From NCBI GenBank assembly GCA_963556255.1, contig OY744605.1, positions 2,564,687-2,628,686 on the forward strand: DNA of 64,000 nt, read 5' to 3'. A program made the position numbers and the translations under genes. Below the pieces are notes generated by a model. The model saw nothing but the letters and a program-made list of their open reading frames with translations, made no database searches and was not told the origin of the DNA. Source of the stretch: Allolobophora icterica (Eukaryota > Annelida > Clitellata > Crassiclitellata > Lumbricidae). Positions 24,450 through 44,628 of this stretch are shown here, piece after piece; positions within the stretch are counted from its first letter, which is position 1; each line of letters opens with the position of its first letter.

Positions 24450-27400
24450 TTATATGAAGAGAAGTCGTTTTGGTCTCCAGCCCTGCACAAAGTCCAGAAC
24501 CTTCTTCCGTTCTAGCGAGTTCATATTCGGAAAGCCCTCCTTCAGCAGGTGGCTGTTCATCTCGCACAGGAGCTTCCCATCGACCTGCTCCTTGGAAAAA
24601 CTGACCGCGATCTGATCCTTCATTCCGATGTATCGGAGACTCATGGCCACTTCTTCTACGCTGAGCGACGACAAGTCTTCTGGAGGTATCCACAGCACGT
24701 CGATCGCTTTCCAGTAAGCACGTTCCCTGTTTTCGTTCCGCATCGTCGATTGCCTGCTTGCGATGCCTGAGTCGCTGAACGCAGCGGAGTCATATCCGTG
24801 GTAAGAAGCAATCGCTGCAGGGTTGAGTCATCTCATTTGAAGGCTGGTGGAAGAAATTCGACGGAGGAACCTGGACGAATAGTCGTCCTCTTTGTCGATC
24901 TCTACGTCTTCACAGTCCGGTATTGTTTCGAGGTTAACATCGATTTCATCTCGTGGAAAATCTTGGTTTGGGAAATCTGGTGTCGATAAGGAGCGCTGTC
25001 TTTTTCGACCGGTATTGTCAGAGGAAACGTTTCTCTGATAAAGGCGTTCTCTGCTATTGTCCGTATCTTTTTCGCTGTTCTTACGGTGAAGTTGTTTCCT
25101 GTACAGCTCTGCCACCGAGTCATCCAAGAACGACTGTAAACGTTCCGAATCACACTTGCGGTTAAAGGGAATTCGATCCATGATATACCTCCGGTGGCTG
25201 CTGTATAAATTCTGACCCAGTTTCTTCTTACAGTTTCCTGTGCTGCCAAATGAATCACTGAAACTGATTCGCTCTCTGCCCTTTTCTAAAACTGAACCAG
25301 TGTCTCGTAGTTCCACGGGAGTTAGGTATCCATCTGGGTCGTATGCAAACGGAGATACCGCTATGGGCGTTTCTTGACGATGTCTGATGGTAGGTGCTGG
25401 TGAGGATGGAGCTGAGGGAGAGGGTTCGTTGGAAATTTCCTTCGGGCAGTGAATTCTCTCGTAAAGTTTTTCGGGGTCAGACGAGTTGCTTTCAACTTCT
25501 GACGATGATTCCTGAAATCCATGGTTGAGTTCTTCCACATTCTTAATCTCCTCCGCGTCGATCTGGGAAGGGAGCGGTGGCAGTTTTCGATCCGTCATCC
25601 TTCCAGAACTGTTACGTGTGATGTTCTGCATGTGGTCGTGTTCGGATTTCGAGCGAGGAAGATCCTTGGACGGGCGTAGCGTGTGTACCAGAGCTATTGC
25701 TTTGTTGTTCAGCTGATGTCTCTCCAGCGATTTCGTGAACCTTGCCGGCAGTTGATTAATTGCAAAGCGCCGTCTTTCATTCTCTGACGAATTCTGGAAT
25801 GGCACTGCTGCATCTTGAGCTCTCTGTGTTGAATTTGTAACTATGGTGTTATCTTGCACGAATATGTCAGACCGTGGTGTATTGTCAACAGATATTGTGT
25901 CTTGACACCACTCTGATGAATTTTTGGCTACTCTTGGTCGTAGAGCAGCAGGAATAGCTGTTGTACTTTGTGGAGTATGTGAAGTACGCTGTCTTCTGTG
26001 GAAGCCTGTTGGAATTTTTGTTCCCCTTTGGGGTATTGTGGGAACAGCTACTCCACTTTGCAGTCTTGGAGTTGTACTTTGTCGAGAAGTTGGATCGGTC
26101 GCACTTTCTGAATCGAACGACTCTGGTTGAATTCTTTTATCAAAACTTCTTTTACAGAATGTACCGCTCCTGATGATATCTGCAGAATCCCTACAAAGTA
26201 TATCTGCGATTTCGTGCGGTCTAATGCCTTCTATAACTGGCTGTATTTCCAGTTCATATGCGTCAGAATACTGCTGGCAAAAGTCAATGGCCTTTAGGGC
26301 GGAAGCATCTCCTTCCCAGTTGTTCGCTAGTAGAAATTCCACCTCCGAGTCGTCAGGGAACTCCACAAACGCCAGTCGATCCTCTCTGGTGATCTGACAG
26401 GCTATAATACTTTGTTCGCTGTACGTCTGTCCAAGCGCCATAAGACCCGTGAAACTCGGCTTCGATTGAGTTTCGTTGGGAGGCGGAGTCCCGTAGACCA
26501 GATGAACCGCCTGCGGAAAGTCCTTTCGATTGACGAGGTCCTTCATCTGGTAGACGAAAGATGGCTGTGATGTCGTCGTCGGACCTTCGTCGCAGTTGGA
26601 TTGGCTCCTTCCGATGCAGCTGAACTGACCATAGGTCTCCAAGGGTAGGAGGACGTCCATCCCGGTGGTCAATCCTCTGCACTGCAGATACATTTTCTCG
26701 CTTTGAGGAGTGTCCGTTTTCTTTCTGAACGGTGGGCAGGGACAACCGCGTAGCGTTTTCAAGAACTTTTCTTGTGGTTCGACGAATATGGGTCCGCAGT
26801 TAAGTACTTCACCTGGGGGTATCTGGACATCGAGAAAGGAATCTCGTTTTGAAGTCGTAGTCATCGAAGGGGATTGATTTGGCCACAGTCCGGTTACGCA
26901 CGAGTGAACAAGGAACCTGTTTGATTTCGAGGCGACCACCTGTTCGATGCTTGTGAGTGGAACGATGAGGGATTGAGGCTTTCCGTCTCCAGATAGAATA
27001 CGAAACCATCCTGCGGAAGAAAAGAATTTCGGTGACCTAACCATTTGGATTCAAACCATGGCATTACTATACGCATGTAGCCCGACTATCAGCAAAGGCG
27101 CCGCCCTAGAAAATGGATAGAATGCATATATTGCATATAGAATCTTGTAGGGTGAAGGTTTTTCTTTAGATACAGTCTCTGACAGATCCCCTCTTCTGGT
27201 ACCTTCCTCTCTCGACCACTTCTAGAATCTTTGGTTTATCCAACAGGGATTGCTTGGTTCAACAAACTTAGCCTGAAAGTGGGGATTCGTGGCTGACTAG
27301 AGTTTGGCACTCCATCGGATATAATTGTAATTTATAATCTAACATTTAGAAAGCGTCATTTCAAGAAAAACTCATAAGGCGCTCAAGAAGAAGGGATCCA

Positions 27401-29439: not shown

Positions 29440-29650
29440 TGAATAAGGACGCTGTGTCATCATTGATGCCGTCCTCCTCCTATCTCCAGGCTTTTGACTA
29501 GCACTACCAGAGTATGGATTGAGGCAGTTAACTACTCGATTGATTAGTTAGTTTACGACGCTGTGTCATAATGAAGATAATTAGCATCGCCCTCCTCCTT
29601 TATCGAGACACGGGACTGGCGCTGCCAGAGTACGAGCAGTGGCGGACTTA
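29440..29650 (+). repeat. Two copies of the GGCACTACCAGAGTA repeat
   Basis: 29440-29530 and 29545-29650 both have GACGCTGTGTCAT, ATCGCCCTCCTCC and a G-CACTACCAGAGTA/GCGCTGCCAGAGTA block, like 9795-9905 and 43700-43815. The tandem pair is head to tail. Confidence 0.65.
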
Positions 29651-30063
29651 ACAGATCCTTGCAATGTTTTCTGTCCGTCATTTTCAGGGCTTGTCATTCG
29701 CAGCCAGGTTCTGCTTTTGTTTCCGTAGATCGTTTTCTTTTGACTAAACCAGGTAAACCTTCATCGCTCAACAAAGAGCTACTATATATACCTGGCGCGT
29801 ATACCTCACTAACAATACACACTGACTCTGGAATGCAATGTCATGTAATGTGACGCATCAAGTGGACTATGATTGATTGCTAACGCCGAACAATACAAGC
29901 TTTTCAGTTCATATAGAACGACCGCAAAAATGACCTACTTTGATACTACCCCCACTCCCTTGCCCCGCTTAAAAGGAGTAGACCTATAGAGACCTAGATG
30001 AGGCTACCCTGCGGATCGTGAAGTGCCAAATGTGCTACGTGGTAGGTACTAGGTACTCTGTTA

Positions 30064-30509
30064 GGGGCCATCCATATATTACGTACGCAAAAATCCGGGA
30101 AAATTGGACCCCTCCCCCCTGTTCGCAAGCGTACTTTCTTCCACACACCCCCCGCGTACGTACACTTGACGCAACCCCCCGAAGACCAGCTGCAGAAAGT
30201 GTCTCGAAAGTCTGCACTTTAGGCCAGATTGAAGGATGAGTGAGGGCCAATATAGACAAATTATAGGTGTCGTTCACAGCACAGAATAACTGCACATGGC
30301 TTTTATATAATGTAATAAAATGCCATCGGACGACTGACTATAGGACAATACAGAGTTATAAATAGGCTAATGTGGACGTGATAATTAGAAATTTATTTTG
30401 CGTACGTACACTTTTGTCCCCCCCTCCACCCCGTTCGCACCCGTACGCAAAATCGCCAAAATCCGACCCCCCTCCCCCCTCAGTGCGTACGTAATATGTT
30501 GACGGCCCC
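30064..30509 (-). mobile_element. TTA-target MITE family, copy 2 (446 bp)
   Basis: TIRs GGGGCCATCCATATATTACG and its counterpart ending GTTGACGGCCCC, flanked by TTA on both sides (30061-30063, 30510-30512). Body runs in reverse relative to 35680-36134. TTA target sites suggest PIF/Harbinger. No transposase is present. Confidence 0.9.
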
Positions 30510-30737
30510 TTAATTACTGCTGCGTCCAGGAAAGGGACTCGGATTCTTTAACAGCGAGGGAACACAGTAGGCCTATAGTCGTCCCCCCATTTTTAATGAA
30601 ACCTTTGATTGCTATTTTGTTAATTAATTGCCAAGTGGAAACTTGACCATTGAGACCAGGCAGCTGACACGTCAACACCAACAACTAATAAAAATTAATT
30701 AATTTTTTTATTACTATTCTCTTTATATTGTTTCGCA

Positions 30738-31006
30738 CTCAATAGTGTAGTGGTTAGCGTGCTGGACTGTCAATCGAGAGGTTGGGGGTTCAAATCTCCA
30801 CCAGGGCGGAATTTGTTTAAAGATTTCTGCTCCATCTGCACCTCTAGCCAACTCAGTTATGATGAGTACACTGTCAGTGGGAAGATGAGATGGCGAGGGA
30901 GAGGCCTGGTCACCCACCCTCATATGCCAAGGCTAAGAAAATGAAGTCGCTAACACTTCATTCCTATGGCTACCTCAGGGCTAGCTTAAGGAACTGCTCT
31001 TCTTAC
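30738..31006 (+). mobile_element. tRNA-derived SINE, best copy
   Basis: A-box TAGTGGTTAGCGTGCTGG and B-box GGTTCAAATC at tRNA-like spacing, followed by a body (GGAAGATGAGATGGCGAGGG) and the tail GAACTGCTCTTCTT. The promoter boxes look intact. Two further copies are at 20225-20510 and 33105-33262. Confidence 0.85.
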
Positions 31007-32905
31007 GTTATTTTGCACTGTACTAGGCCTACGAATAAAAATCAATTAACTTTAGATTTGAATTAGTTTGCACGTGAATTAGTTTGCATGATGAATAGAA
31101 TTATTATATCTAATGCCGTTACAAAGTGCCCCTTGCTTTTTAAACTCCTTTTCGTCCACAAAAAAGGGGCCAACAAATTTTTTGACCCAGATGAAAAGTG
31201 TTCCCCATCTGTCAGACAAGATCGCCGCCTCTGCTGGTGGCTAGCATATTACGGCGCTTTAGAACTTCCCGGATTAGATATACACAAGAAATTAAATATT
31301 TGTTTCCAATGTAAACTTTGAACACCTGGGCTAAGCATAGGCAGCACCTTTGTAAGTTACTTGTAAGGGCTCTGTCAGGTGTGAAGGTAGCGGAATACAG
31401 GTGTTTAAAATTAAAAGATGCTAAATCAGGTGTCCAAGTACAAACATAAAATCAAGTAACCATAACAAGAGGATTTGTTACAATACGTTTATTTATAAAA
31501 CAAATGAAAAAAAATTCCGTGCAACGTGCCAAGAGGTCTCCTTCGACCACAGCGCCAAATGTGCATGACGGAGGACGTTTCGACAACATCATGGGAGAGC
31601 CAGAACTTTGAGCTCCACCAGTCATATCCAACTCTCACCGAAATGCACAAGTGACGCAGAGATCCGAGGAAAGCTCCTGGACTGGCAAGATCCCACAGCA
31701 CGTGCTACACTTGTAAACAAAATCACTGGTAAACAAAATCACTTGTAAACAAAGCAAAAACAACAACGTACCGGTATACAGTTTGATAAAAAATCATGGA
31801 ACAACTTAAAGTATTTCGCAAAGGCATGGAAAACATGGCAAGGCTAGCGGACGGAAAATTAAATAACCGGCATTTATTTGCCTTTCGGAAATATTTTGAA
31901 CGAGTTACACTCAATACTTTCTTGGCTCCGTTAGAAATTTTCATTTTGATTACAGCAAGTGTTTGGTTTAAAAACAGCCATCATCATTTTTGAAAAGCTC
32001 CCCAAACCGAGGTAAAACTACTAAGAAAGAAATTCTTGATCAGCCTGCTGACTTGCAATACAAAACTGCCAGCAGTACAAAATTTCCACATTAAAGATAT
32101 TTTCAAATTGAAAAGGTATCGGCTCAAAAGCACACATTTTGCGCATCCCATAAATGTGGACTACAGTGCGTAAAACTTGTCATAAACACGTCGTTGACGT
32201 AAATGATTATCCAGTAACACCTGAACAGGTCCTAAGGTAAAATTCATTCAGTCGGAAATTTAATATAATTTAATATAACATAATTTAATATAATTTAAAA
32301 TAGAGTTGAGCAATGTATTGTTACAACCTTAATAGTTCTCAGGCCGGGATACCAATGGATCATAATCAGTACCAACAACTATGTTTAAGAAAACATTTAC
32401 AACATAACGAAATGAACTGTTCTCAGCCCCTTGTCAACCGATTTAAATGCAATTTTCAATGTGATCCTTACTCATATCGACACTGATCTGTAACATTATG
32501 TTCTATCTAAATTACATTACAATACATTTTTGCTTTAATAACAATAATAATAAATTTACATGCAATGCTATTTTTGTCATGTGTTCAGGCACTTATAAAA
32601 TTATATACAATAAATAAAGTTTTCCCATAATAATAATTAATTTGCATAGAAAATGCCATAAAATTTTTCTTTGTGCAGGCATTGCTTTTAACAAACTGTA
32701 AATTTGTACAGCAACTTTCGACGATAGGCACTAATTTTTTTACCAAGCTATTTAAATTTATAAAAAAATACTTCGAAATATAAATAATATGAAACATGAC
32801 GACAAGAATATAGCGGCAACAAGTTCTACTGAAAAGTCGACAATATAAACAAGTGTATTAAGCACTGATGCAGGATCTTGATGCAGAGTTCTCATGAGGA
32901 ATGTT
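31007..32905. other. 3' flank of the SELENOW/MIEN1-type gene
   Basis: 31125-31240 contains a repeat piece (CAAGATCGCCGCC core) also at 43520-43545 and 51165-51185. The rest is A/T-rich. The 3' UTR of the minus-strand selenoprotein gene should lie below 32906 and should contain a SECIS element; I could not identify one by eye. An AATAAA on the minus strand is not clearly assignable. Confidence 0.35.
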
Positions 32906-35900
32906 TTACTGCACGACACATTTGGACTTCTCGACTTCCTCCACGAGTTCTGGTTCTCCGCCACGTGAAACGCATTCCACAACCTTTAGTATCTGGAAAA
33001 AACAAACAAAGCTCTTTTCATATCGGATTTCGACCTGGTTTATCAAATGTTCGCAACAGCTTACTCAGAAGTGCTGTGTCATGTCCAGAGATGCAAACTC
33101 AGCTATACACTGACTGTACACTGCCAGTGGGAAGATGAGATGATGAGGGAGAGGACTCGCCACCTGCTCTCATATACCAAGGCTAAGAAAATGAAGTCAC
33201 TAACACTTCATACCCATGGCTGCCTCTCAGGCTAGCTCAAAGGACTGCTCTTCTTCTTATCCAACACTGAATTATGATTTTTTATCATGATTTTACTTGA
33301 AGTGACCATCGACTTATGTTTTGGACATTATGATAATGGCACTTAGAAATAATTCAATTAGATATCTACAGCGTTTGCAATAATACCACAGATTTGCAAA
33401 CGGAATATCAATACAGCATGAATATGCGCAGTTGCGAGTTACTTACAGGGCGCTAAACGAGTGCTCTGATACATACACTTTAGAATCACAGGGAAAACAG
33501 AATTTCACAAAACACTACAGTAATTGTAATTCAAAATTTATACAACACCACTTCAAGAGACACTAAACTGAGGTGCTCTCATTAGTACCTGATTAAAAAA
33601 TATTTAAGAATATTACTAAAGAAATCACACAATCTATAGAAAAAACTACCCGTAGAGAATATTAATCATAATCATAATCTTGAAATTCTTGAAGTGCTAT
33701 TTAAAAACTAAGGACATGGCAATAGCTTATTCACGAGTGCTGGGTCATGTCAGACAGGTTGTCCAGATATAACAAGTGAAGAACAGAGTGTGGCTGCCGT
33801 GTGACCGGGGCAAGGGGAGGTAGAGGAGCTGTTAAGGTGAGTTTCCGTTGGGAACGATAAATGGTAATGGTAATTGCAAATTTATATAGCACCACACTAA
33901 GAGAGACTCATCAGTGGTGCTAGAGACACTAATCAAAGATTGGAAGCAGAGGACGGGATGGACCTGGTCAGGAATTCTTGAAGAGGCAAGACTTCAGTTT
34001 GGAGTGGAAAGATCAAACTCCAGAATTTGTGAAAAATGTCGTAGTAGTGTAGAACTTTAGAAAGGAACACAATTTCCATTAAAGAACATGAGAAAAGAAT
34101 TTTGGCTAAACGTATCTATTCACAGTGTTAGGTAGGTGAACACCTATAACAAAGAACACAACACCAGATCTTCATACTCACTGCTTCAGTACTTGGAAAG
34201 CCTCCAGACTTGAGCTTACTGAAAACCAGCTTATCGTTGACCGTTATCTCAAAGGAAGCTGTCAACAAATACCGCAAAAGTAAACAACTATGAAAGTTAA
34301 CAACTATTAAAGTAAACAATTACAAAAGTAAACAACTATGAAAATAACCAACTAAGAATGTTGCAGAATAAACGAATTAAAGGAAAATGTCAGCTGCATA
34401 TAAACTGGTATGTTATCTATCTATTGACTCCTCGGATATTTTCTGGTCTATGATGGTGGTTATCCACTTAAAATTTACCAGGAAACTAATAACTTACAGC
34501 AAATTATAATTCGTCTGGTAAAAAAACGCTAGCAAAAAACTTCAAAATGATATTCTGTTTACAGTGCAGTCTCTCTAGTAGTAATACACAAAAATTATTA
34601 TAGACCACCAGAACTATACCACAGGCCACTGAATTCCCTTTAATACCAAGGACAGTTTCACTCCAGGGTATCTTTAACTCACATCTGCTGTATTATCCCA
34701 TTTCTAATGGGGTAATAGCCTTAAAGGGAGCCACATTCAGGTTAGAAAAAATGTCATATTTAACGCTTTAACAAGGATGCAACTTGTCGGTAATTAGTGT
34801 TACTGCATAAAATACATACACAGAAAGGAGAATAATAACAATAAAATTAAACTGCTACCTAATTACGTGTAAACCGCAAGTTTCTATCAATAACAGTAAT
34901 TGTAAAGGTGCAAGTCTTTTATTATAATAATAATAAAAATAAAATAATAATAATAATATAATGCCATCCGTCAAAGGGAATCCATTGGTTGGTTCTATGT
35001 GTGTGCGTGGGCCACCACTGGGGACTCTTTTCTAATTTACTGTAACTGTTATGACAACCGATGTAATAGACGAGTTCTAATTCCATTTAACTTCATATAG
35101 GACAGCACAGAGTGTCTCTGGTTAGTCTTGCTTTTTGATTGGAGCTATATAAATGCTCAATTACAATAAATACGTGTAATAATGTAACAGAATAACAGCA
35201 TGGAACATACTCTTTCTTCCAGTTACTCCAGTTATGTCGACCGCTGGGACTCGAGCGAGAATTTTATCCCGCAAGTCGGTGAAGCGGTTCCCGTAACCTC
35301 ATGCTCCGCTAAAACAACAAATTGTAATTGCATTTATACAATTTATATAGTATCATCAGCAGACTGCTACTTCTAGGATGCTTTACACTGTCAACTAGCA
35401 TGGTGGCTCAGTGGTAAGTTCGGCGCCTTGTGACCGGAGGGTTGCTGGTTCGAATCCCACTCTAGCCGCTGCGTACGGACCTTGGGCAAGTCCTTCACTC
35501 GCAATTGCTCGTGGCGCTTCGGCGTGAAAATTCCGGCACAGTATCAAATGCTGTAGTCGGGAGCGCCTCTGAGTAGTAGTTGACTTCGAGAGGCGCTATA
35601 GAAATATCCGGAATAAATAAAATAAATGCTAAAAGTTAGTAACCACGTTAGCTCTATAAACACTTTTACAAAGCGTTTAGGGGCCGTCCATATATTACGT
35701 ACGCAAAGAGGGGGGGAGGGGGGTAAGATTTTGGCGATTTTGCGTACGGGTGCGTACGGGGGGGAGGGGGGTGGCCGAAATGTGTACGTACGCAAAATAA
35801 ATTTCGAATTATGACGTCCACATTAGCCTATTTATAACTCTGTATTGTCCTATAGTCGTCCGATGGCATTTTATTACATTATATAAAAGCCATGTGAAGT

Positions 35901-38016
35901 TATTCTGTGCTGTGGACGAGACACCAATAATTTGTCTATATTGGCCCTCACTCATCCTTCAATCTGGCCTAAAGTGCAGAGAGACACTTTCTGCGGCTGG
36001 TCTTCTCGGGGGGGGGGTGTGCGTCAAGCGTACGTACGCAGGGGGGGGTGCGGAAGAAAGTACGCTTGCGTACAGGGGGGGGGAGGGGGTCCAATTTTCC
36101 CGAATTTTTGCGTACGTAATATATGGACGGCCCCTTAAGTTAAATGCCACCAACTCAAGTCAGGGTTATACACAGTACGAGTTCAATTCTGTAATTTTAA
36201 TCGTAAATTCAAAATTTATAAAGTGCTACTCGAAAGCCAAGCGCAGGGCACCAGCTTGTTCACAAGTGCTGCGTCATGTCATAGGGGTTCGTCCAGAGAT
36301 GTTGAGTGGTTCCTCTAACTAGAGTACTGCATCTGGCTGGACTCTTGTACAGAGACCGTATCGCACCTGCTCTTCGCTCTCTACACTGGCTTCCTGACTG
36401 TGAGCATGTCTGCTTCAAGCTGGCGCTCCTTATGTACAGAGCACGTGCAGATCATCTGCCATCATACCTATCTTCCACGGTCACACTCTGCAACTATGTA
36501 AAAGGTTGCTCCTCTCTTCGATCAGCATCTGCTGGAAAGTATGTTGTTCCTGGTACACGTCTTGCCTTTGGCCGGCATTCATCCTCAGTTGCCGGTCTCT
36601 CCATCTGGAACTCTCTACCTGCTCACGACATTGTTCGCAATTCTCTTACTGAGAGACGCCTTTCGCTCTAAACTGAAAACTTGCCTCTTCCAGTCAACCT
36701 ATGGCTCTTATTGGTTGCCCGGCTTCATTATACACTTCTGAATTTCGTAAGGAGTGCATTATCAAATTACAGTTGTATTGTATTGTATGAAATTACAGTT
36801 GTATTGTATTGTATACTGGAGGTCCAAGGCCGGTTGCCAGACAGACCAGAAAGAGAACACCCCCTGCTATTTCACTTCACTTCCCATTGAAGAAACCTAC
36901 CCAACATGGTTGTTCCCACCTATGCCACCCTGTCCTGGGAGCCATGGTAGGTGTGACCTGTCTGTTCTTCTGGGCAGGGTGCTCAATGTGCCGTTTGCTC
37001 TCATGGCTACCAATGCAACATGGTCCAGCGACATGGAATGGGCTCCCTCTGGACCTGTGCTTGCTCCCCAGAACTCTTTCCAACGCTCTTTATACTAGCC
37101 TAAAAACGGTCTTTTTTGGCCATGCTGGAGTCAGGAGCACCTCTGGGTAGCTCCCCTTGAAGAGGAGCTATATAAATGTATGAATGAATGAATGAAAGAT
37201 ACAGATTTTCCAACACATTTCTCTGCTGTCCATAAGTTTTCCTTATTGCCCCCCTGTTCCGATCCTTTACACAGCCATGTTCATGGCACTTTTAAGGGGT
37301 TCCTAAAATGAGCTCAGTACAAATCCAGATACATATATATATACATCTTGGTTCAAATTACCTTACACTGAAAAAAATATTTTGCCAACACATTGCTCTT
37401 GTACCCACAGACATTGCATTAGGTGGTTCACACTATTTCCACACATTTCTTCATACATTTACATACATCCCAAACATACTTCCGCCCCAAGCACTTTCCT
37501 CACTGCAGCCGGGTACGTATAGACTCCCCCGAAACCCAAATCCCCGAAACTGAGTTTCAACCGGATCCCCGAAATCTACCTGCAAAGTGAAAGCAAAGTT
37601 ATTTACGCAAATCTAACTCCAGGATATTTCCGAATAGCATACTCAGGACATGGGCCGATTAGTCCGTAATAGTTCACGCGCAGTTTGTGCGCGTTATTAG
37701 TTCTCTGGATTTCGCATTTGGTTGAAAATTTGTTTTTCCCGGAAATTGTGTCAATATTGCATTTCATCGCATTCGGGGAATCGGGTTTCGGCGATTGGGG
37801 CATATCGTCTGCAGTCAATCCTAAAGTTGTGCCTGCTTGTAAAAATCGAATCCTACTTAAGACTTTTTAAATCCAGGCCTGGACTTGAAATTACCATGGA
37901 AAGTTAATCGATATTTCGGTTCATGGGAAATGTCGCATAATAATATAATTCAGAATTAAACACTCGACTAATTACCAGTATTCCACGTGAACTTTGACGC
38001 CCTTGCCTTCCGCCAT
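32906..38016 (-). CDS. MIEN1: SELENOW/MIEN1-type selenoprotein (four exons, 100 aa)
   Basis: Exons 38016-37976, 35308-35211, 34258-34182 and 32992-32906 (minus) join by GT-AG introns in phases 2, 1 and 0 to exactly 101 codons. Exon 1 starts ATG and encodes MAEGKGVKVHVEY plus TG; exon 2 completes Cys14 and reads GGA GCA TGA GGT, giving CGAU with Sec at position 17; then FTDLRDKILARVP. Exon 3 carries SFEITVNDKLVFSKLKSGGF, the Rdx-fold strand pair most like MIEN1. Exon 4 ends KSKCVVQ, a CaaX-type prenylation signal as in MIEN1 (CVIL). CGAUGY is the classic SELENOW redox motif. The product should be a thioredoxin-like, membrane-tethered redox protein. Every other residue block aligns without gaps, so the TGA is unlikely to be a random nonsense change. 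No SECIS was found by eye. Intron 1 is filled with LINE and MITE insertions. Confidence 0.88.
33105..33262 (+). mobile_element. SINE 3' half (family of 30738)
   Basis: CAGTGGGAAGATGAGATG through GACTGCTCTTCTTC, without the tRNA-like head. It lies in intron 3 of the selenoprotein gene. Confidence 0.8.
33520..34015 (-). mobile_element. LINE-tail fragments
   Basis: 33525-33575 and 33870-34015 both start with AATTTATA-AGCACCAC and continue with AGAGA-ACT; the second encodes a minus-strand FHSKLK-type segment. CR1/L2-like 3' ends in reverse orientation. Confidence 0.5.
34320..35200. other. Intron 2 of the selenoprotein gene
   Basis: A/T-rich, with a short (TAA)-rich patch at 34923-34962 and a LINE-like tail at 35105-35165 (GGAGCTATATAAATGCTCAATTACAAT). 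No gene. Confidence 0.5.
35299..35301 (-). other. Predicted selenocysteine codon (TGA)
   Basis: Fourth position of the CxxU motif (Cys14-Gly-Ala-Sec17). In vertebrate MIEN1 the same position is Cys (CEPC); in SELENOW it is Sec (CGAU). It sits 8 nt after the exon 2 acceptor. Confidence 0.85.
35397..35630 (+). mobile_element. tRNA-derived SINE
   Basis: Head with A-box GGTGGCTCAGTGGTAAG and B-box GGTTCGAATCCC, then CTTGGGCAAGTCCTTCACT (a conserved SINE central motif) and an L2-like tail AGAGGCGCTATAGAAAT with AAATAAA repeats. Good internal promoter boxes. Confidence 0.85.
35680..36134 (+). mobile_element. TTA-target MITE family, copy 3 (455 bp)
   Basis: TIRs GGGGCCGTCCATATATTACG / CGTAATATATGGACGGCCCC, perfect over at least 20 bp, flanked by TTA (35677-35679, 36135-36137). 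GTACGTACGC motifs recur subterminally. Best-preserved ends of the five copies. Confidence 0.95.
36210..36760 (+). mobile_element. CR1/L2-like LINE, reverse transcriptase C-terminus
   Basis: One frame of about 110 codons reads LHWLPDCEHVCFKLALLMYR, YLSSTVTLCNY, then FGRHSSSVAGLSIWNSLPAH, the LHWLP ... R-FS-AGP--WN-LP order typical of CR1/L2. The frame breaks near 36670 just before SKLKTCLF. A recent but dead copy. Confidence 0.88.
36800..37195 (+). mobile_element. LINE 3' end with (TGAA)n tail
   Basis: Contains a GPATWNGLPLDLCLL segment, SLKTVFFGHA, then GGAGCTATATAAATGTATGAATGAATGAATG. Same family type as the preceding copy; tail microsatellite marks the 3' end. Confidence 0.7.
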
Positions 38017-39349: not shown

Positions 39350-39803
39350 GGGGCCGTCCACATATTACGTACGCAATGAGGGGGGTCGGATTTTGGCGAT
39401 TTTGCGTACGGGTGCGAACGGGGGGGGGGGGGTGGACAAAAGTGTACGTACGCAAAATAAATTTCTAATTATGACGTCCACATTAGCCTATTTATAACTC
39501 TCTATTGTCCTATAGTCAGTCGTTCGATGGCATTTTATTACATTATATAAAAGCCATGTGCAGTTATTCTGTGCTGTGAACGAGATACCTATAATTTATC
39601 TATATTGGCCCTCACTCATCCTTCAATCTGGCCTAAAGTGCAGACAGTCGCTCCCGAGACACTTTCTGCAGCTGGTCTTCGGGGGGGGGCGAGCGTCAAG
39701 TGTACGTACGCAGGGGGGGGGTGGAAGAAAGTACGCTTGCGAACAGTGGGGGAGGGGGTCCAATTTCCCCGGAATTTTGCGTACGTAATATATGGATGGC
39801 CCC
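39350..39803 (+). mobile_element. TTA-target MITE family, copy 4 (454 bp)
   Basis: TIRs GGGGCCGTCCACATATTACG / CGTAATATATGGATGGCCCC with TTA on both sides (39347-39349, 39804-39806). Inserted just after the LINE tail. Confidence 0.95.
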
Positions 39804-42005: not shown

Positions 42006-44628
42006 CTACGCAAATATAACAATTAACGAAAAGACAACAATAATCGAAATAGCGAATACAGTTTCCTTTAAGGTCAGCGCTTGCAGCACAGCTGAAAAGA
42101 ACGGACCAGAGATGACTCTTCGAAGTTCGAGACAAGCCAAAATGAAGGCGATCACATCCGAAGCCATGAAGCCAACGTCTCTCGTAAACTGATGCCACTC
42201 ACCGTTGCTCCACAGCACATTCTGCACAAACTGATCGTAGCCACTCGCTGCGATATGAAACAATGCAACTGCAGCAATGGTCACCAGATGGCTTGGTTGA
42301 GGTGGTCTAGTATTATCACACATTGGCAGAACAAGACCAGTCGAGATGGCTTCCGTAAGACTGAAGATGGCCTGGTGGAAGATCTGTTTATAATAGTCGT
42401 CATTCCAGGCGTTTAGGTAGGACCACCACGTGTAGTAGTGTGGATAGAGGGATGCTAAGAGGATGATTGTCGGCCGAAGACTGAGCTTTCCATCACGAGC
42501 GAGAGTAAGTAGATACTTGGTGGATTCGTAGAGGAAGATCACAAAAGCGACGGTAATGGACCAGATGAGAAATGACTGCCATGTCACGTTGAAATAGAAG
42601 TGCTTGTAACCCGGTGCTTTTTCTCCACGCTGGTAGGTACCTGTTGCAAGGTAAAGCAATTAGATTGATTTCCATTGTGGTTATGAACGATATGCATAGT
42701 CTTGTCATGTGCGTTTGTGAAGAGTTGCTTCCATTAGGCCTATAAAACGGCAATTACAGTTTGAAGAGTGCTCGTATAGGACCTTTACAGAAACACTTGT
42801 TATATGCTATGGGTTTCTAGAGTATGGTCAATATAAAAGGCAAACATACGTAGGCCCCTATTATAGGCCCTAGATAGAATTCGCCATTTATAGGTTTAGT
42901 CCCTATGCCGTTCGTTTCATGAGAGGCAATTGATCGGTAGAAGAAGAGAAGCGTATAATTATAATCACCAGTTAACATTATACAATCTCTGCGTGTGGAA
43001 GGAGGTCAATCGGCCTACGCGGATCATGAGCAACCTCGTGAAGCCTTGCGACTTAAGTCGTCCAATATAGTGTCTTCGGCATACAATACAATACAATACA
43101 ACTGGAATTTGATAATGCCCTCCTTACAGAGTTCAGAAGTGCACATTGAAGCCAAGCAACCATTAAGAGCCATAGGCAAACTGGAAGAGGAAAGTTTTCA
43201 GTTTAGAACGAAAGACGGCATAGGGCATTCATGCATAAAGAACCTCTTACTTGCTAACTGTTCATGTAGGCACGGACGGCGATCATGGGGGGGGGGTCGA
43301 GGGGGACAAGACCCCCACCTTTAACAGTGGGGGACACGTCATGCATCGGACCCCCCACAATTTGAAGAAACACCAAAAAGTCATAAAAATTTTTCGCTGA
43401 GCGCGAAATTTTTTTAAAACTTTTTTTGACCAGATCAGTTCACGGCGATAAATTTGTTGTACCTCTTTTTCACCAGATCAGTTCAAAACTCTTTTTTGAC
43501 CAGATCAGTTCCCCCCTCACCTTTCAAACAAGATCGCCGCCACTGCATGTATAGGCAAGCCAGAAGAGTCAGCAAAGACTACCAATCCAGCACCCCTCAC
43601 TGTATTTGCTATAGCTGGCATAAATTGTTCTAGACATTGAGTGTTATAGTTGCGTCTGTGAGAACTGTATACTGAATAAATGAAAATTGATTGATTGATT
43701 GATTGTGTAGCAGTTTCCAGTGTTTAACGACATCTTATGGCTGCCGGAGCCGTTGACATCGCCCTCCAACTTAATCCAGGCTTTGGACTGGCACTACCAG
43801 AGTACGAGCACTGGCCAGTGTTTAATCTAGACGTCTTTGGGGGGGGGGTAAATGTCCCCCCCCAGGATTGATGTTTCCCCCCCCCCAGAGGCCGGCAATA
43901 TTATAATGTAGAGAAGTTTTTGGGAGGCAATTTCCCCCCCAGGATACATGGTTTCCCCCCCAGAGAGACGGATCCCTAAAAAAAAGGTCATCAACTTTTT
44001 TGAGAGAGTAATTTAAAGGAAAATTGGGACGAATGACTAAAAAAAAAAAAAAAGGTCATCAACTTTTTTCGAAGATGAAAGTTGTAAAAAGTCTGGATGA
44101 AAGTTGGAAAAGTCTGAAAAATTGGTTGGTCCCCCCAGAAACCTGGTTTCCCCTCCCAGAAGAGGGGGACTAGATTAAACACTGAGCACTGGCGGAGTGA
44201 GCTTGAACTTGCTTGAACTTGAGCTGCCTCACATTAAATTCAGAATTAGACAATGCACAGAAGCATGCGCATAGGCTAATTAAGCTAACTAGGCTAATCA
44301 GGCTAAGTGTTGTTTCAGATTAACCAACCTTTGAAGATGGTGTCCCAACACGAACAAGAACACAACTCTTTGTCCACTGCTGGTTTATCTGAATTCCACC
44401 ATCTATAAGAACAGTTTTTGATGTTTCGTATAATAAAGAGTAATAATAATCATATATCTATTGCCATCTAACGCTTCAACTCAATCGCTTTCACAGCACT
44501 TTTGACACTTTGCACGTCATCAAGGAAGACTATATCGATCGCCATGCCAGAATAATGATATCCCTAATTTTTGAAATCACGAGGTATTACTTGTACCTCA
44601 GGTAAAACATAATAACAAAAACAACAGC

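Follow-up and report, generated by a model that had tools for sequence, protein, structure and literature searches.

A predicted selenocysteine-encoding, CaaX-tailed member of the SELENOW2/MIEN1 family in Allolobophora icterica

Gene structure and family membership

The window, by which we mean the whole 64,000-nucleotide (64 kb) stretch of Allolobophora icterica DNA analysed here, carries on its minus strand a gene of four coding exons. The features of the coding region are as follows.

37976–38016, minus strand: coding exon 1, starting with ATG and encoding MAEGKGVKVHVEY plus the TG of the active-site Cys codon, with a GT donor
35211–35308, minus strand: coding exon 2, with the redox motif CGAU, a TTTTAG acceptor and a GTATGT donor
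35299–35301, minus strand: in-frame TGA, codon 17 of the spliced CDS, predicted to encode selenocysteine (Sec) as residue 17
34182–34258, minus strand: coding exon 3 (six-frame genome match, E 1.9e-8)
32906–32992, minus strand: coding exon 4, ending in CVVQ and a TAA stop codon (six-frame genome match, E 6.1e-9)
32909–32920, minus strand: CaaX box codons Cys-Val-Val-Gln, a farnesylation site as predicted from the motif

This structure of four minus-strand exons with matching phases, giving 100 residues with TGA at position 17 and a CVVQ end, had been proposed in a preliminary description and was borne out on the sequence. AAGAC lies directly 5' of the ATG. The three introns are all GT–AG, in phases 2, 1 and 0, with the donors GTAATT, GTATGT and GTGAGT and with AG at the end of all three acceptors. 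The CDS of 303 nt encodes 100 residues, and its sole internal stop is the TGA at codon 17 (written as U): MAEGKGVKVHVEYCGAUGYGNRFTDLRDKILARVPAVDITGVTGRKTSFEITVNDKLVFSKLKSGGFPSTEAILKVVECVSRGGEPELVEEVEKSKCVVQ. The GC content at codon positions 1, 2 and 3 is 0.58, 0.40 and 0.51, respectively, and that of the introns is 0.41. As judged from its sequence, the locus is a genuine, intact gene.

The spliced product was scored against profile and structure libraries. It matches Pfam Rdx (PF10262) over residues 8–77 with 68 bits (cut-off 22.6), which makes it a member of the Rdx family, and the NCBIfam SelT/SelW/SelH model with 70.5 bits (cut-off 34.2). Among solved structures the best match is human MIEN1 (PDB entry 2ljk; 59.7 bits, spanning residues 3–96), followed by mouse SELENOW (PDB entry 2npb) with 36.2 bits. 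These scores are not attributable to chance. The second active-site position, which is Cys in the Cys form of MIEN1, is TGA in the window gene; the GEGTP stretch of SELENOW1 is absent and the CaaX box that SELENOW1 lacks is present. An in-frame TGA at the CxxU position, here codon 17, is the mark of the selenoprotein form of SELENOW2.

The 1.118 Gb genome was searched in six frames with the window protein, with scores for the best candidates only, and five matches were returned: exon 2 (E 1.4e-13, with one TGA inside), exon 4 and exon 3 of the window locus, and two weak rows (E 0.113 and 0.836). Exon 1 gave no separate row in this search, and no processed copy of the gene was found among its best candidates. 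Searching the genome in six frames with the Pfam Rdx profile yielded 0 matches at E 0.001, which is consistent with a gene made of short exons.

Several other features of the window were recorded. The same-strand neighbour downstream is a 740-residue open frame (24828–27050, minus strand) with a partial CABIT domain (28.8 bits; cut-off 24), which we take to be GAREM-like. A repeat rich in C/G and containing TACGTACGC motifs is present in at least three copies between 29000 and 39500 (30063–30513, 35676–36135 and 39378–39500), one of them in intron 1. Two 111-nt repeats with 87% identity lie at 30866–30976 and 33116–33226 (the latter in intron 3); the former is about 65 nt from a tRNA-like stretch (30743–30800; 25.3 bits, below gathering), and the pair is perhaps SINE-like. 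Two full-length, sub-threshold matches to the twister-P1 ribozyme were found on the minus strand, at 29585–29654 (27.2 bits) and 43757–43827 (25.4 bits; gathering 67.2). These two are identical at 53 of 81 columns and perhaps belong to a repeat family with a twister-like ribozyme.

Relatives, paralogue and phylogeny

A first protein search with the window protein identified one relative, P0002. A second search, using an alignment of the window protein and P0002, identified 39; as P0002 has W at the Sec column, this query may favour W-bearing relatives. At that column W is present in 34 of the 39 relatives and C in one, and the motif is absent from four. The W is probably a TGA read as Trp by gene callers, and the 34 are called Sec-type below on that reading. 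P0013 continues beyond its CDIM tail with W and additional residues, consistent with a TGA stop codon that was read through. A scan of viral contigs gave 14 pattern matches, none of them a relative.

A CaaX end is found in 15 of the 34 Sec-type relatives, with M as the last residue in nine, L in two, and S, C, A and Q in one each. It is also found in the Cys relative, Schistocerca americana 'migration and invasion enhancer 1' (P0033), which shares 40% identity with the window protein and ends in CIIL, but has Cys in place of Sec (CGGC). P0011, which matches the window protein over 97% of the length, ends in SSCLVS. Sixteen short Sec-type relatives without CaaX (P0002–P0010, P0012, P0014–P0017, P0019 and P0020) form one clade, most of them with Lys/Ala-rich ends; P0013, P0022 and P0023, also Sec-type and without a terminal CaaX, fall outside it. 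In an alignment of 20 rows, chosen mostly for having a CaaX tail, the CaaX Cys is kept and the stretch preceding it varies.

The same genome has a separate SELENOW1 gene, on contig C12, with TGA present and no CaaX. It was located from a genome search with rat SELENOW, in which a single row was returned that is weak alone (E 0.226; 59% over 29 residues) and owes its identification as SELENOW1 to the neighbouring exons. The predicted exon 1 encodes MAKVKIHVIY and then has TG before a GT donor, and the predicted exon 2 reads T-GGA-GCC-TGA-GGG-TAC-GAC-TCC-AAG (CGAUGYDSK). A later exon encodes GEGTPTRTGYLEVQIVGGKILHSKK and the last exon NGDGFVDTKAKTDKIVQGIREALAAAKS followed by the stop codon; the protein ends in ALAAAKS. 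For the part of SELENOW1 between DSK and GEGTP, one exon could not be located. The first intron of both paralogues is predicted to fall after the second base of the active-site Cys codon, and both proteins have CGAU and belong to the Rdx family, whereas SELENOW1 has GEGTP...TG and GDGxVDT stretches and no CaaX.

A search with mouse SELENOW agreed with the earlier statement that SELENOW lacks a CaaX box: none of 72 SELENOW1-type hits ends in one (those with names are mostly from mammals, and several are partial or odd predictions). The tree that the preliminary description had called for was built from 41 rows, including four of the 72 SELENOW1 hits and leaving out P0035 and P0038–P0040 (short, motif absent). 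The window protein and all other rows are split from the four SELENOW1 rows with support of 100/100, which places the window protein on the MIEN1/SELENOW2 side. It adjoins P0011 and P0013 with weak support (87/71). Human MIEN1, on a long branch (1.22), groups with P0030 and P0031 (99/99), two CVIM-ending relatives with W at the Sec column. The inner order of the tree is unsure because the sequences are short and some branches are long.

The proposal of a Sec-type, probably prenylated MIEN1 relative thus holds in so far as the locus appears to be an intact, Sec-encoding member of SELENOW2/MIEN1 with a candidate SECIS element (below). The special closeness to the ancestor of MIEN1 that had been suggested is not upheld: CaaX ends occur in 15 of the 34 W-type relatives, two of which stand beside human MIEN1. 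We also reject the reading of the gene as a SELENOW/MIEN1 hybrid or intermediate, since the genome has its own SELENOW1 and the combination of a predicted Sec with CaaX is common among the relatives.

The family has been described under several names. A 2012 survey of vertebrate selenoproteomes (PMC3316567) reports the selenoprotein SelW2 from bony fishes, frog and elephant shark and describes mammalian Rdx12 (MIEN1) as a remote homologue of it with Cys. As the origin of Rdx12 it suggests a duplication with a prompt Sec-to-Cys change, before the amphibian split. SelW2 is named in planarian, Schistosoma and Trichoplax (PMC3828610) and in Ciona (PMC2874816), and a survey of six invertebrates found one to three SelW genes per species (PMC3473315). 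Like the window protein, SELENOW2 is a small Rdx protein with Sec in CxxU and is distinct from SELENOW1; the available parts of these accounts (PMC3316567, PMC3828610, PMC2874816) make no mention of a CaaX box, which the window gene has. Human MIEN1 (Rdx12, C17orf37) shares the C-terminal CaaX and the thioredoxin-like Rdx fold, for which a redox-active CxxC is reported (PMC3527542), but has Cys for Sec, CVIL rather than CVVQ and a longer N-terminus. No description of Sec together with prenylation, CaaX or farnesylation in one protein was found in the portion of the freely readable literature that was searched.

These comparisons bear on whether the CVVQ end is used. Sec could be incorporated while CVVQ stays unprenylated, leaving a soluble protein like SELENOW; prenylation is a motif prediction, and the 16 relatives of one clade have a predicted Sec and no CaaX. 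However, CaaX recurs in 15 of the 34 Sec-type relatives and in the single Cys relative, its Cys is kept next to a variable stretch in the 20 mostly tail-selected rows, and the CVIL end of human MIEN1 is reported to be geranylgeranylated (PMC6738349). We consider a soluble product rather unlikely.

Candidate SECIS element and selenium machinery

Two features were identified 3' of the coding region.

31575–31634, minus strand: candidate SECIS element (full-length alignment to RF00031, positions 1–64)
31488–31493, minus strand: AATAAA, the probable poly(A) signal, about 80 nt 3' of the candidate SECIS

The candidate SECIS lies about 1.27 kb 3' of the stop codon. Its AUGAC core is at 31625–31621, with AAA after 11 nt and UGAU at 31591–31588; the order after the core is UGGUGGAGCUC, AAAG, UUCUG, GCUCUCCCA and UGAU. 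A second AATAAA, at 31878, is 5' of the element, and some transcripts could end there, before the candidate SECIS.

A covariance search for a SECIS in the 3' UTR, which the preliminary description had proposed, returned a full-length match at 31634–31575 to Rfam SECIS_1 (RF00031), but at 15.7 bits for a gathering threshold of 35. With 151 bases and 4,227 families searched, the E-value is 1.4; by our own scaling, about 0.002 hits would be expected for a single family on a single strand of the 1,426-nt UTR. The match was reported by the 151-base scan alone: SECIS_1 was absent from a 3.6-kb scan (to E 10) and a 64-kb scan (to E 1), and Rfam at gathering thresholds found nothing in the whole window.

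In a strict pattern scan the candidate was the sole strict match in the 1,426-nt UTR, and a strict match at −10 kcal/mol or better turned up in five of 1000 dinucleotide-shuffled UTRs. Strict matches at −8 or better in the 64-kb window number two on the minus strand (the candidate, −10.4, and one at 36728, −10.8) and one on the plus strand (−8.5); the pattern is not unique in the window, because the match at 36728, in intron 1, has a similar energy. Looser pattern matches at 31984, 31987 and 29204 were rejected, as their folds are weaker. With the core kept unpaired, the strand around the candidate folds as a single long imperfect stem-loop. The stability of the 106-nt fold is not above that of shuffled versions (z −0.35), of which 71 in 200 fold equally well. 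An alignment of the candidate SECIS elements was too poor to model.

Other selenoprotein genes of the genome served as controls. SELENOW1 has its own RF00031 match 841 nt 3' of the stop codon, at 18.9 bits and thus below gathering; the strict scan of the SELENOW1 region found a match elsewhere (L017:5185, −9.3) and not at this site, which becomes visible to the pattern scan only when loosened (−7.4). For two deiodinase genes with in-frame TGA (SCT-U-P and SRT-U-P), RF00031 was not among the 44 matches with E up to 10 in their regions, a scan in which a match of about 19 bits would, by our own scaling, exceed the reporting limit. The strict scan gave a match for one of the two, about 3.5 kb 3' of the stop codon. 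These controls are mixed, and a low RF00031 score is weak evidence both ways.

A genome-wide RF00031 search, covering the best 150 of 18,036 candidates, gave two matches, of 30.0 and 28.4 bits, both below the cut-off. The genome-wide SECIS_1 matches are at L014 1501–1565 and L015 1501–1564, both on the minus strand, and no adjacent selenoprotein gene was established at either locus.

Taken on its sequence features, the 31634–31575 element is likely to be a SECIS. A variant of this reading is that UGA is a true Sec codon served by another element, downstream or non-canonical; the sub-gathering score and the strict matches elsewhere in the 64 kb speak for it. Against it, 31634–31575 is the only strict match in the UTR, is equalled in few shuffled UTRs, and fits in core, spacing and place before AATAAA. 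We regard the use of another element as improbable.

The tRNA-Sec family has nine matches in the genome, five of them above the cut-off and the top one at 76.9 bits; this one is a tRNA-Sec with anticodon TCA according to both ARAGORN and Rfam. With this tRNA and the two TGA-containing deiodinases, the genome qualifies as Sec-decoding.

That the locus is a recently dead pseudogene, in which a nonsense mutation turned a codon of a former MIEN1 gene (e.g. Cys TGY or Trp TGG) into TGA, is very improbable and was rejected. The TGA falls exactly at the Sec column of the family, between Cys-Gly-Ala and Gly-Tyr as in the SELENOW1 of the same genome, and 34 of the 39 relatives have W (probably TGA) in that column. 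Splice sites, frame and C-terminus are all intact, no second lesion was seen, and a SECIS candidate is present.

COX1 sequences were also noted in the assembly. The in-frame codons of COX1 on contig C328 include AGA four times, AGG once and TGA eleven times. The vertebrate mitochondrial code interrupts this frame, whereas codes 5, 9, 13, 14 and 4 leave it open; judged at conserved positions, the residues at its AGA, ATA and AAA codons presumably fit code 5 (invertebrate), and the gene looks annelid-like. A second COX1, at C257:6513–7808, is a 721-residue open frame that is stop-free under the standard code, and this contig perhaps derives from bacteria, either symbiotic or contaminating. At C8:61145195–61147845, in a 70-Mb contig, both strands carry pieces of COX1, which are probably inverted nuclear copies of mitochondrial DNA.

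Proposed mechanism and significance

The reading that we hold with high confidence, on the evidence of the DNA and its comparisons, is that the window locus is a SELENOW2/MIEN1 gene, the sole copy found, whose product would acquire Sec through UGA and a SECIS and be farnesylated at CVVQ. The mRNA would be spliced from the four coding exons, and the UGA in exon 2 would be decoded as selenocysteine, aided by the candidate SECIS. The product would have the thioredoxin-like Rdx fold, a CxxU redox centre and, presumably, a redox role. Farnesylation of CVVQ is predicted because Q at the last CaaX position is a farnesyltransferase-type end, and the farnesyl anchor would hold the selenol redox centre against the cytosolic side of a membrane. 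Nonsense-mediated decay under selenium shortage is known for other selenoprotein mRNAs; two exon junctions lie 3' of the UGA, and the window mRNA should therefore be prone to such decay when selenium is short.

On sequence criteria, the window gene is an additional, ordinary member of the published SELENOW2/Rdx12 (MIEN1) family. The modestly new point is that this family seems commonly to combine Sec with a CaaX anchor. Whether Sec and a prenyl anchor in one polypeptide are the ancestral and still the usual state of MIEN1 across animals, and perhaps in other eukaryotes, we judge to be evenly balanced. If so, there would be a class of lipid-anchored selenoproteins, and the Cys-MIEN1 proteins of vertebrates and insects would be later Sec-to-Cys derivatives. 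A shift from farnesyl-type to geranylgeranyl-type ends may have accompanied that derivation: farnesyl-type ends (M, S, Q, A or C) are found in 13 of the 15 Sec-type CaaX relatives and in the window gene, and the geranylgeranyl-type end (L) in the Cys forms of human and Schistocerca (two cases only) as well as in two Sec-type relatives.

In mammals MIEN1 has been studied mainly as a Cys-containing, cancer-linked protein; the present comparison suggests that most members of the group to which it belongs contain Sec and that many end in CaaX. Should Sec and prenylation indeed coincide, such proteins would carry a selenol redox site and be held at a membrane through a lipid, and their Sec form could reveal the redox reaction that MIEN1 catalyses.
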